The notes below the pieces were generated by a model that did not search any database, was not told where the DNA came from, and saw only the letters and a list, made by a program, of their open reading frames with translations. A DNA stretch of 64,000 nucleotides from Acidobacteriota bacterium (GTDB lineage Bacteria; Acidobacteriota; Thermoanaerobaculia; Multivoradales; Multivoraceae), in assembly GCA_003388555.1 (NCBI GenBank), contig QQVD01000052.1, forward strand, positions 1 to 64,000, written 5' to 3'. Shown piece by piece: positions 28,807 through 35,708 of this stretch. The translations under genes and the position numbers were made by a program. Every line of letters begins with the position of its first letter. The stretch's first letter is position 1.

Positions 28807-30276
28807 TCAGGCGACGCGGGCGCCGACCAGGTCCGCCGCCTCGCGCAGCCGCGCCTCGCTCTCGCGGTGGGCGCGCAGGAACGACTCGGGATCGGAGAGC
28901 TTCGAGAGGCCGAGCCGCATCCCCTTGCGCAGCGCGGTGAAGGTCACGGCGCCCGAGGCGAGTGCCAAGAGCAGACCTGCGTAGACGCGCATCCGCCCCT
29001 GGATCTGGTAGCGGACATCGAGGGTGTGGCGCCAGAGCCCGGCGTACTGGCGGTAGAACTCGTCGATCGGCAGTCGGGTCGGGAGCACCGTGTGGGCGAT
29101 GTCGAACAGCTCCCAGTCCTCGGTGACCACGTCGTCCTTGACGTCGTCCCACAGGTCGGTGCCCGGCAGCGGGGTCAGAACCGAGAAGCCGCTGTTGTAG
29201 GCGCCGGTGCGGTCGATCCAGCGCTTGAGCTTGTCGAAGTCCTCGCGGTCCCAGCTCGGGTCGACGATGAAGTTCGGCGTGTAGCCGACGTCGAGATCCT
29301 GCAGGATGCGGATCGCTTCGTCGTTGTTGGCCGCGGTGTTCGACTTGTTGACCGAGCTCAGCCCTGCGTCGTCGATCTTCTCGAGGCCGAGGAAGATCGT
29401 CATCGGACCGCACCGCTTCCACTGCTCGATGATCTGCGGGAACTTGCAGATGATGTCCGAGCGGGTCTGGATGGTGTAGTGCTTGACGGTGCCGGAATCG
29501 GCGAGCGCGTCGGCCAGCTCGCGGGCCCGCTTGATGTTGATCCAGAAGATGTCGTCGGTGACGAAGACGTTCGGAGCGCGCACCTGCTCGAGCTCGGCGA
29601 CCACCCGCGGCGCCGACTTCTCGCGGAAGGTCGACTCGTGGAACTTCCAGACCGAGCAGAAGTTGCACTTGAACGGACAACCGCGGGCCGTCTCGAGCAG
29701 CGCCAGCGGGCGGCGGAAGTTGATGTAGTACTCGTCGGCGTATTCGTCGACGAGATGCCTCGCGGGCATCGGCAGCTCGTCGATGTCGCGGCGGGCCGGA
29801 GCATGGCCGGTGAACCGCGGCGCGCCGTCGCCGCCGAGCATCAGGCCGGGCACCCGGCTCAGGTCGCCCTGCTGTTCGAGCGCCGCGACCAGCGGCGGCA
29901 TCACCTCCTCGCCGTCACCGATCACCACCACGTCGATCAACGGATGGTGGAACCAGCGCGGATCGCGGGAGCAGTCGTGGCCGCCGAGAACGATGGTCGC
30001 GTCGGGCAGCGCCGCGCGCACCAGCTTGGCCAGGCGCAGCATGCGGTAGCGCTCGGTGGTGAAGTTGCACTGCAGGCCCACGACCTGGGGAGCGAAACGC
30101 ACCACCTTCTCCAACCCCGCCTCCAGACCGTCGAGTCTGCAGTCGACGATCTGGCACTCGTGACCGTCCAGCTCGAGTCCTCCGGCGACGCACTCCATCC
30201 CCAGGGGCTCGACCATGGTGATCATCTCGAGGCCGATGATCCCGCCGACCGGCGCCTTAACGAACGCGACTCTCAT
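28807..30276 (-). CDS. B12-binding radical SAM protein
   Basis: 489 aa, ATG with GGAGGAGG upstream. The N-terminal cobalamin-binding-like domain (about 1-165) contains 'VLGGHDCSRDP' and 'VVVIGDGEE'. The radical SAM core has the CxxxCxxC cluster Cys200, Cys204 and Cys207 (RGCPFKCNFCSVWKF), then 'FVTDDIFWINIKRARELA'. This layout is shared with methylases such as hopanoid C-3 methylase HpnR, a possible but unproven assignment. The C-terminal region contains a hydrophobic helix (VYAGLLLALASGAVTF), suggesting membrane proximity and a lipid substrate. It follows the ATP-grasp-like gene by 55 bp on the same strand. Confidence 0.88.
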   Translation of the reverse strand: MRVAFVKAPVGGIIGLEMITMVEPLGMECVAGGLELDGHECQIVDCRLDGLEAGLEKVVRFAPQVVGLQCNFTTERYRMLRLAKLVRAALPDATIVLGGHDCSRDPRWFHHPLIDVVVIGDGEEVMPPLVAALEQQGDLSRVPGLMLGGDGAPRFTGHAPARRDIDELPMPARHLVDEYADEYYINFRRPLALLETARGCPFKCNFCSVWKFHESTFREKSAPRVVAELEQVRAPNVFVTDDIFWINIKRARELADALADSGTVKHYTIQTRSDIICKFPQIIEQWKRCGPMTIFLGLEKIDDAGLSSVNKSNTAANNDEAIRILQDLDVGYTPNFIVDPSWDREDFDKLKRWIDRTGAYNSGFSVLTPLPGTDLWDDVKDDVVTEDWELFDIAHTVLPTRLPIDEFYRQYAGLWRHTLDVRYQIQGRMRVYAGLLLALASGAVTFTALRKGMRLGLSKLSDPESFLRAHRESEARLREAADLVGARVA

Positions 30277-30331: not shown

Positions 30332-31696
30332 TCAGCGAACGCCGCGACCTCCGGCCGACGGCTCCGGTCCTGGGAAGACGGTGGCGAGGCCGCCGCCCGG
30401 TGTCCTCAGGTTGGTCGTCTGCCCACGATAGAGGCGCGCGATGAAGAACTGGACCTCTCCATCGTAAACCACCGCCCTCAGGTCGAGCTTCAGGCGGCGT
30501 TCGTCGTCGCCTCCCGGCGACCCCTCGCTGCGCCGACGCGGCCAGGCCTGGACCTCGCTAGGCTCGATCCTCTGCTGCGCCAGGTACGACGCAGCGCCTT
30601 CGCCGGTGATGCTGTCGAAGGTGCGGCGGGTGAGCTTGCGACCGTCGTAGGCGCCGCGGCTGCCGTACCCCTGCACCGGCTTGAAGAACAGCTCCTTGCG
30701 TCGTCGCCAGAGGTCGTCGGGGTCGGCCCCGGCCACGACGCTCGTCGGCGGTACCGCCGCGGCGAGCAGCCGACGGTCTGCGTCGCTGACGCCGATGGCG
30801 GCGAGCAGCTTCGCGTCGGACAGCTGCACCAGGCGCCGCTTGTCGGCCAGCGCCAGGTAGACCTCCGGGTTCGGGGTGACCACGACCAGGCGTCTCAGCC
30901 AGGCATCGCGCAGCGCTCGCTGCGGTGCTTCGGCGAGCTCGAAGTCGGTCGAGCGGTTGTAGACCAGATCGATCGGCTGACCGCGGTGGCTCAGCCCTGC
31001 CGGCGTCGACTCGAGCTGCCCGGTGTCGATGACCTCGGCGCGCACGCCGGCGCGCTCGAAGAGAGCTCGGAAGAGGAGCATCTCGGCGTACAGACCCTGC
31101 GACGGCGGGTCGGCGTCGACGATCGCGATCGAACGCGGGCGCTCGCCGTGGTGTGGGCCGCCGCCGACGGCACGCGCGATCGCCCACTCGGCGAAGAAGG
31201 AGTCGAGGAGGGCGCGCTCGAGACCTGGCGGATCGATCGTCGCGGTGGACAGCTCGGCGACCTCGTCGCAGCAGGCGAGCTGCGCGGCTGTCAGGCGCGC
31301 TGCCAGCAGCACGCCGCCGGCGTTGGTGTTGATCTCGACCAGACGGGGGCCGTCGGTCGTGAGGTGGAAATCGAATCCGAAGAGAACGCCGCGCGGGTGG
31401 CCGGGTGCGAGGAAGCCGGACGGGCAGCCCGGCAGCCGCGGCGCCACCCGCCAGATCGAGCGCACGATCTCCCGCGCCGCTTCGAGCTGGGCCGGCGGCA
31501 CGAAGACCGGGGTCGACGCGAACCAGGTCGAAGCCGCGTCGGTGAGGCGCTCGGCGAGCCGGTCACCGACGTCGCGCTGCAGCCCCTCCCTCAGCGCCGC
31601 CTCGTCGACCTCGATCCACCTGCAGCCCAGCGCGGGAGGGCAGGTCCCTTTCGTCGCCTCCGGATCGATGGGCCACTGTTGTTCGGGTCGGTTCAA
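30332..31696 (-). CDS. ATP-grasp-like protein
   Basis: 454 aa, TTG start with GGAGGAGG about ten bases upstream. An early 'GFDFHLTTDGPRLVEINTNAGG' segment supplies carboxylate and Asn metal-binding residues. A later 'ELFFKPVQGYGSRGAYDG' resembles the lysine and glycine-rich loop of ATP-grasp folds, so the order of elements looks permuted relative to glutathione synthetase. Such proteins usually ligate a carboxylate to an amine. It is divergent from the selenoperoxiredoxin gene (145 bp between starts) and upstream of the B12-radical SAM gene; a joint pathway is plausible but unproven. Confidence 0.65.
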   Translation of the reverse strand: MNRPEQQWPIDPEATKGTCPPALGCRWIEVDEAALREGLQRDVGDRLAERLTDAASTWFASTPVFVPPAQLEAAREIVRSIWRVAPRLPGCPSGFLAPGHPRGVLFGFDFHLTTDGPRLVEINTNAGGVLLAARLTAAQLACCDEVAELSTATIDPPGLERALLDSFFAEWAIARAVGGGPHHGERPRSIAIVDADPPSQGLYAEMLLFRALFERAGVRAEVIDTGQLESTPAGLSHRGQPIDLVYNRSTDFELAEAPQRALRDAWLRRLVVVTPNPEVYLALADKRRLVQLSDAKLLAAIGVSDADRRLLAAAVPPTSVVAGADPDDLWRRRKELFFKPVQGYGSRGAYDGRKLTRRTFDSITGEGAASYLAQQRIEPSEVQAWPRRRSEGSPGGDDERRLKLDLRAVVYDGEVQFFIARLYRGQTTNLRTPGGGLATVFPGPEPSAGGRGVR

Positions 31697-31841
31697 TCCC
31701 GGCTCGCCTCCTCCAGGGCAATCCTCGCATCGGCGCCGTCCGTACCATCAGGCGCGTCGAGGCTTGCTGAGCCTGCGCGGTGCGAGATGCTGCAGCGATT
31801 CTGCGATACTGCGGCTCCGCCGTCACGAGAGGAGGAAGCGA

Positions 31842-32480
31842 GTGAGGATCGAACCGAGAGCAGGCCTGGTCGCCGCGGTCCTTGCGGCATCGCTGGCCGC
31901 GACGGCTCTGCCGGCTGCGTCGGCCGAGGTCGCCGCCAGCGCCACAGAGATCCGCCCGCTGCTGATCGGAGCGCAGGCGCCCGACGTCGCGGTGCAGGCG
32001 CTCGACGGCAGCGAGGTGGAGCTGAAGGACATCCTGGCCAAGCAACGCAGCGTCCTGGTGTTCTACCGGGGAGGCTGGTGACCGTTCTGCAACACGCAGC
32101 TCGGGAAGCTGCAAGAGATCGAAGACGACCTCCGGGAGCTGGGCTGGCAGATCGTCGCCTTCGCCCCTGATCGCCCGGAGAACCTGCAACCGACGGTCGA
32201 GAAGAACGCCCTCGGATACCAGCTCTACTCGGACGCCTCGGCGGCGGCGATGAAGGGCTTCGGTATCGCCTGGCGCACGCCCGAGGAGATGCGAGAGCAG
32301 TACAAGGGCTACGGCATCGACCTGGCGAAGGCGTCGGGTGAGGAGCATGGGCTGCTGCCGGTGCCGGCGATCTTCCTCGTCGACACCGACGGCAGGGTGC
32401 TCTTCTCGTACGTCAATCCGGACTACAAGGTCCGGCTGGAGCCAGCGATCCTCCTCGCCGCGGCGCAGTCACTGAAGTAG
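31842..32480 (+). CDS. peroxiredoxin-like selenoprotein with in-frame UGA (Sec80)
   Basis: 212 aa if UGA 32079-32081 is read as selenocysteine. GTG start with AGGAGG six bases upstream. Residues 1-28 are a signal peptide ending in AASA, so it is probably periplasmic. The AhpC/TSA (thioredoxin-fold) domain follows: 'LIGAQAPDVAVQALDG', then FYRGGW-U-PFC, where U occupies the peroxidatic cysteine position (usually FYRGxWCPxC), with Cys83 giving a UxxC redox pair. The same frame then continues without a stop through 'LPVPAIFLVDTDGRVLFSY'. A hairpin fitting a bacterial SECIS follows the UGA. Conservation on both sides argues against decay. Standard gene calling would give only fragments. Expected role: reduction of peroxides by thiols. 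Confidence 0.85.
32079..32112 (+). promoter_or_regulatory. candidate bacterial SECIS element
   Basis: UGA at 32079-32081 is followed by a perfect 6-bp stem, GCAGCU (32096-32101) with AGCUGC (32107-32112), closing a five-base loop CGGGA. The loop begins 20 bases after the UGA and has G at its second position, as required by the bacterial SECIS consensus (SelB-binding hairpin just downstream of UGA, G in the first two loop bases). Read by eye; no folding energy was computed. Confidence 0.75.
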
Positions 32481-32550
32481 GGCGAACCGCCGCGGGCCGC
32501 AGCCAGCACCGGCCCCGGCGGGTGGGCGCGGCCGACGTGGATTCCTTCGC

Positions 32551-33714
32551 ATGTCGAGCCCCCCCGCCGCCCGCAACCAGATCGCGTTCCTGCTGCTGCT
32601 CCTGGTGGCGGTCGCCCAGGTCTTCTGGTGGATCTATGACCAGGGGCGGTACTCGCGCGAGCGTCAGCAGGAGCTCATCGAAGCCTACGAATCGGAGCGT
32701 CTGGCGGCGGAGCGCCTGCTGCAGAGTGGCGCCCTGGGGCCGGAGGCCTGGAACGCCGAGCTGGCGCAGCGCTTCCCGCACCTCGAGTTGATCGGCGATC
32801 GGGTGCGGGTGAGCCCGCTGGCGATCGCTGAGCTCGAGCGTGAGCGGCGCTCACACCTCAACCAGTACCGCTGGGAGGGCGCCTTCTTCCTGCTCGTGCT
32901 GGTCGCCGGCATCTGGGTGATCCGCCGCGCCCTGCTCGGCGAGCGCCAGCTGCGGCTGCGGCAGGAGAACTTCCTCGCCGCCGTTTCGCACGAGCTGAAG
33001 AGCCCGATCGCCAGCCTGCGCCTGGCCGGCGACACCATGGCCCGGCCCGAGCTCGACGAGTCGAGACGGCAGGCGCTGCTCGAGCGCAGCCAGCGTGACC
33101 TCGACCGTCTCGAGGACCTGGTGATCAAGGTGCTCGACACCTCGCGGATCGAGGCGGGCGGCGTGTCGACGGTGCCGGAGCGCCTGCGCCTGGCACCGCT
33201 GCTGCGCGGCCTCGTGGCCGAAGGTGCGCCGCCCCGCGGCGCGATGGCACGCGCCGAGCCGGAGGTCGAGGTGGACGTGGCCGAGGAGCTCGAGCTCGAG
33301 GCCGACCGCGTGGCGGTGGAGACCGTGGTGCGCAACTTGCTGAGCAACGCCCACGCCGCGGTCGCCGGCCGGGACGAACCCCGCATCGTCGTGCGGGCGC
33401 GACGTTCGGGCGCCACGCCGACGGCGGTCGAGCTCGTCGTCGAGGACAACGGCGTCGGCTTCCCGCCGCAGGAGAGCGAGCGGCTGTTCGAGAAGTTCTA
33501 CCGCGTCGGCGACGAGCTGCGCCGTCGCAGTCGCGGCACCGGGCTCGGCCTCTACCTGGTGCGGCGCTTCGTCGAGCTCGAGGGTGGCGAGGTCTCAGCC
33601 AGCTCGCCCGGAGACGGCGGCGGCGCCATCTTCCGTGTCGTCTGGCCGGGCACGGCCGCCGTGGCACGCCGGCGGCGCCGACCGCAGGCTCGGGCCGCCG
33701 GTCAGGGGGCGTGA
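32551..33714 (+). CDS. membrane sensor histidine kinase
   Basis: 387 aa. Two transmembrane helices (about 10-28 and 110-126) flank a short periplasmic sensor of about 80 residues. HisKA has phospho-acceptor His147 (VSHELKSPIASLRL); the ATPase has N-box 'VRNLLSNAHAAV', G1 'EDNGVGFP' and G2 'GTGLGLYLVRRFVELEGG'. It lies 70 bp after the selenoperoxiredoxin gene on the same strand, so the two may be co-expressed. The OmpR regulator at 27938 is the closest candidate partner. Confidence 0.95.
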   Translation: MSSPPAARNQIAFLLLLLVAVAQVFWWIYDQGRYSRERQQELIEAYESERLAAERLLQSGALGPEAWNAELAQRFPHLELIGDRVRVSPLAIAELERERRSHLNQYRWEGAFFLLVLVAGIWVIRRALLGERQLRLRQENFLAAVSHELKSPIASLRLAGDTMARPELDESRRQALLERSQRDLDRLEDLVIKVLDTSRIEAGGVSTVPERLRLAPLLRGLVAEGAPPRGAMARAEPEVEVDVAEELELEADRVAVETVVRNLLSNAHAAVAGRDEPRIVVRARRSGATPTAVELVVEDNGVGFPPQESERLFEKFYRVGDELRRRSRGTGLGLYLVRRFVELEGGEVSASSPGDGGGAIFRVVWPGTAAVARRRRRPQARAAGQGA

Positions 33715-33847: not shown

Positions 33848-35236
33848 TCAGCGCCGGGCGGCCGCTTCGGTCGTCGGCGCCGGAAGGCCGGAGCCGCGCA
33901 GAGAGTCCACGATCGCGTCGGCGAGGAGGGTGTTGCCCTCTGGGTTGAAGTGGCAGCAGTCGTCGACGTACAGGGTCTGCGCGGCGTCGGAGAAGAGGTC
34001 GGTGGCGTCGAGGAAGGCGACGCCGCGCTGCGACAGCTCGGCGCCGGCCCGGCGCAGCAGCGGATATCCGGCGAGCACACCAGGTCGGTACGCGTGGTCG
34101 GCGAGGAAGGCGGTGCGTCGCTCCGTGTCGCTCAGCGGCTTGGACCCGGGCACGTACTGGTTGGGCTGCAGCACGTGTAGGTAGGCGATCCCGAGGCCTT
34201 CGCAGAGCGAGCTCATCTGCAGCGAGGAGCGGGCCCACACGTCCACCATCGCTGCCACGGGATCGACGCCGGAGGGTAGCGGTGGCCCGAGCATCTGTCG
34301 GCTCTCGACGATCAACGAGGCGTCGCGGAGCGAGGTCTCCAGCTCGGCGAGCCGGCGCCCGTCCCTGCGGTCGAGGGAGGCCCACAGCGAGCCAGCGAAC
34401 AGGCTCTGGCCGAGCAGTGGAGCAGACCAGCGCAGGGCACGCTGTTGGCGTCGTCTCCTGACCACCAGGAGCTCACCGGTGGCGCGCAGCAGGGTGGGAT
34501 CGCGCTCGGCGACCAGGGTGCGCCAGCTGCGCGGGTAAACGGGGGAGACGCCGTGCGGCACCAGCTCGTGAGGCGGCAGCGCGACCTCGTTGAAGCCGTC
34601 GATGACGATGACCAGGTCGAGCTCGCCGCCGAGCGCCAGCAGGTAGTTGAGCGCCATCAGCTGCTGTGGCTGCTTGTAGCCGCCAGCGGCCAGCGACAAC
34701 ACCGACACGTCGCGTCCTCGGTAGGCGTCGAGGCCGGCCAGCTGGTCGGCGAAGCGCTCGCCGACGGTGTCGACGAAGATGTTGGCGACCGAGCCGCCGA
34801 ACACCCCGACGAGTAGCTTGTCGGCCGAACGACGCTGGATGAGGGGCTGCCGGTTGTCGGGGAAGCCCAGCGCGTCGCCTGCGGTCACCGCGGCCGCTTT
34901 GAAGCCCTCTCCGGCAACCGCGTCGCTTTCTCGCGCCGGCGCGCCGCTGCTGCCATCGAGGTCGTTCGATGCGTCTCCCGATGGGTGCAGGACGTAGCCG
35001 AGGTAGGGGTGCAGCACCCCTTCGTCGTGGCGGCCGCGGATCTGTCTGGCGCGGCGCGCCGCGCGCGAGTCGTCGCGCAGCTCGGGCTCGGGGCGCAGCG
35101 CAGCCCGCCGTGCCTCCAGGGTCCGCCAGCCGACCCAGCTACCCTCGGTGAGCCGCAGCGAGACGGCGCCGAGGGCTTCGACGAGGGCGACCACCGCGAG
35201 TGCCGTCGCCGTGGTGAAGAGGAGCTTCTTGAGCAC
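33848..35236 (-). CDS. membrane-anchored SGNH/GDSL-like hydrolase
   Basis: 462 aa from a GTG at 35236; another GTG at 35251 is equally possible. An N-terminal membrane anchor (LLFTTATALAVVALVEAL) precedes an SGNH fold: block I 'VGVFGGSVANIF' with the nucleophilic Ser, block III-like 'VIDGFNEV' and a C-terminal 'DDCCHFNPEGNTLLA' providing the Asp-His pair. Such anchored SGNH proteins often (de)acetylate cell-surface polysaccharides. It follows the OsmC gene by 46 bp on the same strand. The substrate is unknown. Confidence 0.75.
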   Translation of the reverse strand: MLKKLLFTTATALAVVALVEALGAVSLRLTEGSWVGWRTLEARRAALRPEPELRDDSRAARRARQIRGRHDEGVLHPYLGYVLHPSGDASNDLDGSSGAPARESDAVAGEGFKAAAVTAGDALGFPDNRQPLIQRRSADKLLVGVFGGSVANIFVDTVGERFADQLAGLDAYRGRDVSVLSLAAGGYKQPQQLMALNYLLALGGELDLVIVIDGFNEVALPPHELVPHGVSPVYPRSWRTLVAERDPTLLRATGELLVVRRRRQQRALRWSAPLLGQSLFAGSLWASLDRRDGRRLAELETSLRDASLIVESRQMLGPPLPSGVDPVAAMVDVWARSSLQMSSLCEGLGIAYLHVLQPNQYVPGSKPLSDTERRTAFLADHAYRPGVLAGYPLLRRAGAELSQRGVAFLDATDLFSDAAQTLYVDDCCHFNPEGNTLLADAIVDSLRGSGLPAPTTEAAARR

Positions 35237-35282
35237 GCCCTGAGGTCGCACGCGGCGAGGTCGAGAGTCGCCCGGCGCAGGC

Positions 35283-35708
35283 TCAGCCGGCGAGCCGCGC
35301 CTGCAGGGTGATCTCCGCGTCGAGCAGCTTGGACACCGGGCAACCGGCCTTCGCCTTCTCCGCCGCTTCGGCGAACTGCTCGGCACTGGCTCCCGGTACC
35401 TCGGCCTCGACCTCGAGGTGCACCCGGGTGATCGCGAAGCCGCCATCGACCTGCTCGAGGCTCACCGTCGCCGCGGTGTCGATCCGCTCCGGGGTGTGTC
35501 CGCCATCGCCGAGGATCTTCGAGAGGGCCATCGAGAAGCAGCCGGCGTGAGCGGCTCCGATCAGCTCCTCGGGATTCGTCCCTTTGCCGTCCTCGAAGCG
35601 GGTGCCGAACGAGTACTGGGTGGCGGAGAGCACTCCGCTGTCGGTGGTCATCGTGCCGCGGCCGTCGCGCAGGGATCCCTGCCATCGGGCGCTTGCCTTG
35701 CGTTTCAT
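35283..35708 (-). CDS. osmC: OsmC family peroxidase (organic hydroperoxide reductase)
   Basis: 141 aa, ATG with AGGAGG nine bases upstream. The two catalytic cysteines are Cys57 ([11 protein letters not shown]) and Cys123 ([10 protein letters not shown]), and '[12 protein letters not shown]' is the OsmC/Ohr signature. It reduces organic peroxides with lipoyl or thiol donors. Full length for the family. It lies 3 kb from the selenoperoxiredoxin, so this stretch has two peroxide-detoxifying genes. Confidence 0.95.

Follow-up and report, generated by a model that had tools for sequence, protein, structure and literature searches.

The gene and its reading frame

The window (the whole stretch of DNA analysed, 64 000 nucleotides) contains a gene that reads as a single frame from a GTG at 31842 to a TAG at 32480, with a TGA at residue 80 as its sole internal stop (Table 1). 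Pfam family PF00578 (AhpC-TSA) matches residues 42–186 of the product at 84.1 bits (cut-off 26), a stretch that spans the TGA. Scanned for TGA codons flanked on both sides by 50 open, coding-like codons, the 64 kb yielded four places, and a redox motif was recognized (by eye) only at this one, LVFYRGGW-U-PFCNTQL, in which Sec would be residue 80. Cys83 is the single cysteine of the protein, and Sec80 and Cys83 are its sole redox residues. R76, G77, W79, Sec/Cys80, P81 and C83 are invariant across 57 aligned members of the family.

Table 1. Features of the selenoprotein locus in the window.
Feature	Position	Strand	Remark
Selenoprotein gene, Prx-like UxxC, PF00578	31842..32480	+	212 aa; range includes stop
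Shine–Dalgarno sequence AGGAGG	31830..31835	+	6-nt spacer to GTG; read from the sequence
Probable Sec-type signal peptide, residues 1–28, AASA/EV	31842..31925	+	estimated cleavage site
Active-site motif R-G-G-W-U-P-F-C, residues 76–83	32067..32090	+	profile alignment
UGA read as selenocysteine, residue 80	32079..32081	+	homologue codon comparison
SECIS-like hairpin, GCAGCU/AGCUGC (6 bp), loop CGGGA	32096..32112	+	stem 32096–32101/32107–32112
Pro175 codon	32364..32366	+	aligned to ResA Pro and peroxiredoxin catalytic Arg; at least 90% conserved

The N-terminus is hydrophobic at about residues 8–25, followed by an AxA-type site, ALPAASA/EV (hydropathy); the predicted model has an N-terminal helix at 6–22, in blocks of mean pLDDT 65–78. 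Hydrophobic N-termini are common to many homologues, and members of a more distant clade (L048, L049 and the Paenibacillus loci, for example) are without one, start sites being script-chosen in both cases. The window protein is probably exported, judging from its N-terminal sequence. An earlier, sequence-only reading of this DNA had described conserved protein on both sides of the TGA in one frame, a strong Shine–Dalgarno sequence and an exported protein related to peroxiredoxins. The PF00578 match and the AGGAGG ahead of the GTG bear out the first two; the third holds as well, with export itself only probable.

The UGA codon and the selenocysteine machinery

That reading had made its case depend on the presence of sel genes, and all of them are found in the genome that carries the window: SelA (422.1 bits, cut-off 267.9), SelB (315.4 bits, cut-off 242.25), SelD (228.3 bits, cut-off 125) and tRNA-Sec (70.1 bits, cut-off 47), the last also called by ARAGORN as tRNA-SeC with anticodon tca. 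Among 14 control genomes, SelB passes its cut-off in two, SelA in one, SelD in two and tRNA-Sec in five. Thus the protein models prove selective, the RNA score less so; by itself the tRNA-Sec score is weak, since it passes in five of the 14 controls while SelA passes in one.

A match at E 1e-3 was obtained in 105 of 118 related genomes, many of these matches being distant, and one at E 1e-25 in 55 of 396 genomes across the phylum. Within the family of the source genome (G001–G023), 22 of 23 genomes have a close homologue (48–55% identity) with TGA at the corresponding codon; G003 has just a 34% match. When the homologous loci were aligned at residue 80, as the sequence-only reading had proposed, 40 rows (the window included) had TGA and 61 had TGC or TGT. 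These rows are drawn from the fetched loci only and leave out repeats by motif (L062, L064, L066, L067 and L086; compare L023, L027, L029, L031 and L046), the window itself under a second label (L021), two fragments (L118, L122) and L121, which is unaligned at the motif. The 19 Sec homologues in the profile are 25–56% identical to the window protein. The ratio of Sec to Cys rows is not a frequency: the database contig scan searched with Cys in place of Sec (WCPFCNTQ was among its six peptide patterns) and is biased to Cys forms, and Sec forms outside Acidobacteriota are under-sampled.

The form of the gene goes with the machinery. Of the 36 genomes that have a Sec form (the source genome included), 33 have SelA above cut-off, versus 10 of 29 with Cys only (Fisher p 1.3e-6, uncorrected for kinship); in 22 of those 29 the Cys form was assigned from the lack of an internal stop and not from the codon itself. 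G003, with its distant TGA match only, was placed in neither group, and G052 and G125, each with two or more homologues, were counted as Sec. The three Sec-form genomes without SelA above cut-off (G016, G022 and G213) have tRNA-Sec scores of 70.9, 73.2 and 69.2 bits respectively, and in G016 SelA is split in two pieces. G436, which the phylum listing gives as '1 TGA', has Cys at the motif and no SelA above cut-off.

A conserved hairpin downstream of the UGA

A hairpin lies just 3' of the UGA with a G in its apical loop (CGGGA, 32102–32106), which begins 20 nt past the UGA. This agrees with what is expected of a bacterial SECIS but is weak when taken from the window alone. Indeed, of the 973 TGA triplets that the window has over both strands and all frames, 73 precede a hairpin of such geometry with 6 bp or more, and on its own the window hairpin is unremarkable. 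When four stretches of 39–62 nt were folded, the minimum free energy structure was a different hairpin; the SECIS-like one took its place once the first 12–17 nt were omitted, as if held by the ribosome. In a control with synonymous recodings of the window sequence, 80 of 300 were as stable (z -1.16). The codons for QLGKLQ predispose to a hairpin of this kind, which counts against it. A search of Rfam with 31700–32700 at E 10 gave no SECIS match, only five weak and unrelated ones.

The homologues give a clearer result. With the register fixed, at least five of the six pairs form in 33 of 35 Sec homologues versus 9 of 60 Cys homologues, although near-copies abound among the 35, which reduce to 20 distinct 45-mers. 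L048 and L049, the two that fall short, form hairpins of 8 and 6 bp shifted by one nucleotide. The mean recoding z is -1.53 for 28 Sec sequences versus -0.25 for 57 Cys sequences. The 19 distinct Sec sequences give 114 cells, of which 98.2% are paired (7.0–53.5% in slid registers), two-sided changes occur in 13 cells versus 4.6 in shuffles, and the covariation score is 0.343 versus 0.183; none of 500 shuffles reaches the observed value of any of these three measures, which relatedness may inflate. Two further measures are not exceptional, namely the number of pairs with two-sided changes (three, a value reached by 43 of 500 shuffles) and that of further pair types (five; 425 of 500). We conclude that the hairpin is above chance because it is conserved with compensatory changes in the Sec homologues and rare in the Cys ones. 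The sequence-only reading had placed a SECIS-like hairpin 20 bases past the UGA, and pairing in the homologues supports it. The folding and covariation analysis which it had suggested came out divided: covariation is seen among the Sec homologues, but the minimum free energy structure of the window alone is the other hairpin.

One Cys homologue, from a Bacteroidetes MAG (L065, 1015–1653, + strand), has a well-placed SECIS-like hairpin, CAGCU-CGGAC-AGCUG. Either the QLGQLQ codons happen to produce it, or it is the trace of a recent change from Sec to Cys.

Taken together, the sel machinery, the conservation of the TGA and the compensatory pairing in the hairpin mark this as a selenoprotein gene and not an error or a pseudogene. 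We are nearly certain that the UGA encodes selenocysteine, as the sequence-only reading had it. Were the TGA a true stop, the locus would be a pseudogene, a sequencing error or two separate fragments, and the hairpin could be dismissed as one of the 73 of similar geometry. However, the TGA recurs at the same codon in homologues as little as 25% identical, the hairpin covaries and the genome has the full sel machinery, so that we regard a true stop as extremely improbable. Sequencing error and pseudogene were rejected on the conservation of the TGA.

Predicted fold and active site

The structure was predicted with Cys in place of Sec. The model (pLDDT 94.0, pTM 0.86) has a helix, residues 81–91, directly after residue 80, and its predicted fold is that of a peroxiredoxin: the top Foldseek match is the peroxiredoxin 3hjp (E 7.5e-12), on which it superposes with Z 22.1 and rmsd 2.1 over 156 aligned positions. 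By Foldseek TM score, normalized by query length, it is nearer to peroxiredoxins (3hjp, 0.66) than to ResA (4nmu, 0.54).

The active site was mapped by aligning a profile of the 57 members to solved structures. R-G-G-W-U/C-P-F/Y-C aligns on P-A-A-F/M-S/T-x-x-C of 2cx3, 2ywn and 5epf, with Arg76 at the motif Pro, Sec80 at Ser/Thr and Cys83 at the Cys, the peroxidatic residue of peroxiredoxins. In L052, a TxxC paralogue from the same genome, Sec80 likewise maps to Thr and Cys83 to Cys. The sequence-only reading had put Sec at the peroxidatic position; this alignment does not support that placement. The window protein thus departs from the peroxiredoxin motif PxxxT/SxxC in two places, Arg76 for Pro and Sec80 for Thr/Ser, and retains Cys83. 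Pro175 aligns to the Arg of KRAVF/KRSVF in 2cx3, 2ywn and 3hjp, the peroxiredoxin catalytic Arg, and no such Arg precedes the late strand of the window protein. In ResA (4nmu), Sec80 and Cys83 fall on both Cys of WCKPC and Pro175 on the second Pro of PLPT, which corresponds to the thioredoxin cis-proline. The residue mapping and the predicted fold together point to a thioredoxin-like active site on a peroxiredoxin scaffold.

Gene neighbourhood

In the window, the gene is flanked by a histidine kinase downstream and by an upstream protein without a Pfam match. The 10 ORFs beside the gene at eight homologous loci have no Pfam family in common; one ORF adjoining the L123 locus is DsbA-like. The neighbours scanned, in the window and at these eight loci, point to no substrate.

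About 3 kb downstream, on the opposite strand, 35283–35708 encodes an OsmC-family protein (72 bits), possibly involved in peroxide defence. Two long ORFs on the same strand as the OsmC gene, 30332–31696 (454 aa) and 33848–35446 (532 aa), gave no match to Pfam at E 0.001. ARAGORN calls a tRNA-Ala (cgc) at 29724–29821 (+ strand) inside the opposite-strand B12-binding/radical SAM gene 28807–30276; this is probably a false call.

Proposed function

We favour, with moderate confidence, a model in which the protein is an exported reductase of the thiol-disulfide type that works through a Sec80–Cys83 bond, its UGA being decoded with the help of the hairpin. In this model SelB would deliver tRNA-Sec on the hairpin, so that the UGA at 32079 is decoded as Sec80, and the precursor would leave the cytoplasm, presumably through the Sec pathway. 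The mature protein would combine a peroxiredoxin fold with a thioredoxin/TlpA-type site, Trp79-Sec80-Pro-Phe-Cys83 plus Pro175. Sec80, just ahead of the helix, could then attack an oxidized substrate (a protein disulfide, a sulfenate or a small disulfide), Cys83 would close the Sec80–Cys83 selenenylsulfide, and a DsbD-type membrane relay may serve as electron donor for its re-reduction. A DsbD_TM match is found in the same genome (66 bits, cut-off 27.1). Two features of the protein speak against a thiol-disulfide role: its fold resembles peroxiredoxins more closely than ResA, and Cys83 stands at the peroxidatic place. In its accessible text, PMC3514251 takes the CDD definition to imply that PRX-like CXXC proteins are not protein disulfide oxidoreductases, and this counts against the model too.

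The sequence-only reading, a periplasmic peroxiredoxin with Sec at the peroxidatic position, would make the protein an exported selenoperoxidase in which Cys83 resolves. The predicted peroxiredoxin fold and the OsmC-family gene nearby would suit such an enzyme, and selenols readily react with peroxides. The doubt cast on a disulfide oxidoreductase role of PRX-like proteins in the available part of PMC3514251 leans the same way. However, Sec80 aligns on Thr/Ser, and Arg76 and Pro175 replace the motif Pro and the catalytic Arg, and we consider this assignment unlikely. The roles may also be exchanged, with Cys83 peroxidatic and Sec80 resolving its sulfenate into a selenenylsulfide. This would fit the alignment of Cys83 on the Cys of 2cx3, 2ywn, 5epf and L052 and the fact that the protein has no redox residues besides these two; PMC3514251, as far as its accessible sections go, raises the speculation that the peroxidatic Cys has its counterpart in one of the two Cys of CXXC. 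But the same source itself notes that the other two residues of the triad are missing, and in the window protein the activating Thr and Arg are both absent, which makes a peroxidatic Cys83 a rather doubtful proposition.

Distribution and relation to known families

The Sec rows fall into 10 family codes within Acidobacteriota; Cys rows with a named source include Pseudomonadota, Bacteroidota, Verrucomicrobiota and Bacillota, among others. In a quickly built tree of the 101 rows, in which 41 of 96 inner branches are open, the distribution of Sec and Cys needs at least eight changes, of which the starred branches force at least two. The 40 Sec and 61 Cys rows offer a natural comparison of the two residues within one, probably exported, scaffold. 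A bolder proposal is that of a class of dual-purpose exported repair selenoenzymes, spread over many acidobacterial families, in which a peroxiredoxin scaffold would have been converted to a thioredoxin-type W-U-x-x-C/Pro site. Outside the cytoplasm these enzymes would reduce disulfides as well as hydroperoxides, at selenium rates, and lineages would repeatedly have exchanged Sec and Cys; we regard the proposal as speculative and rather improbable.

Selenoproteins of the UxxC kind are known, as the sequence-only reading had stated. In its available text, PMC1088965 (2005) treats a Prx-like selenoprotein family with UXXC replacing TXXU as known; PMC2398784, in its accessible part, lists 225 Sec and 2,740 Cys members of 'Prx-like 1' (pfam00578, UxxC) from ocean samples; and the available portions of PMC13188914 and PMC9312934 give the UxxC Prx-like family as predicted. 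The window gene is therefore not a new kind of system, since Prx-like UxxC selenoproteins are, on these excerpts, an established predicted family. It represents a new branch of this known kind, frequent in Acidobacteriota. With Prx-like 1, or the Prx-like thiol:disulfide oxidoreductase family, it shares PF00578, UxxC in place of TxxU and the occurrence of both Sec and Cys members, as far as the excerpts describe that family; it differs in being frequent in Acidobacteriota, in carrying the motif RGGWUP[FY]C and in its probable signal peptide. This placement follows from PF00578 and UxxC as described for the family, whose published representative is WP_010940744.1.

The CXXC proteins of PRX-like2 (cd02970) resemble the window protein by description: according to the accessible text of PMC3514251 they are cyanobacterial Cys proteins with an N-terminal CXXC, peroxiredoxin-like and without the catalytic triad. 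The cd02970 selenoprotein in the available part of PMC13188914 has UxxS, unlike the UxxC found here. The selenocysteine peroxiredoxin PrxU (NF040737) belongs to the same superfamily and also has Sec in its active site, but in TxxU (PMC13188914, available part), whereas the Sec of the window protein is at the Thr place. ResA/TlpA proteins, which are exported thiol-disulfide oxidoreductases, share W-C/U-x-x-C and the aligned Pro (4nmu) with the window protein, and probable export, but the fold predicted here ranks with the peroxiredoxins.

In NCBIfam (June 2026) the window protein stays below the cut-off of every model. PrxU NF040737 (22 bits, cut-off 270), ResA NF002854 (41.9 bits, cut-off 170) and the SelL-related redox protein NF040769 (55 bits, cut-off 120) were rejected on this basis, and the window protein is also under cut-off for the WAxxUGC families. 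A scan of all 57 members with NCBIfam lists E-values; the cut-offs apply to the window protein only. Because no model reaches cut-off, annotation pipelines may well split the gene at the UGA. The gene is ordinary in kind, and its value lies in the correction of the annotation.

Few selenoproteins are named for Acidobacteriota in the available literature excerpts. The accessible part of PMC1794560 counts eight Prx-like selenoproteins in genomes and, for Acidobacteria, four selenoproteins in three families, and the open-licence literature, as far as its text is accessible, has one acidobacterium with three known selenoproteins. The branch to which the window gene belongs was not found described in the accessible open-licence literature on UxxC or acidobacterial selenoproteins, and a search of that literature for selenoproteins in Thermoanaerobaculia gave no match.

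Further UxxC candidates in the genome

The genome (G000) contains three UxxC Prx-like candidates, the window gene included. The second, at C21:56887–57438 on the minus strand (L051, L141), has an in-frame TGA in FFRGHW-U-PYC and shares 28% identity with the window protein; its longest hairpin has an apical loop that begins 16 nt past the UGA. The third, at C3:148496–148687, also on the minus strand (L053, L142), has an in-frame TGA in FRGDW-U-PYC, followed by a hairpin with the stem GCCAGCUG/CGGCUGGC whose loop begins 21 nt past the UGA.
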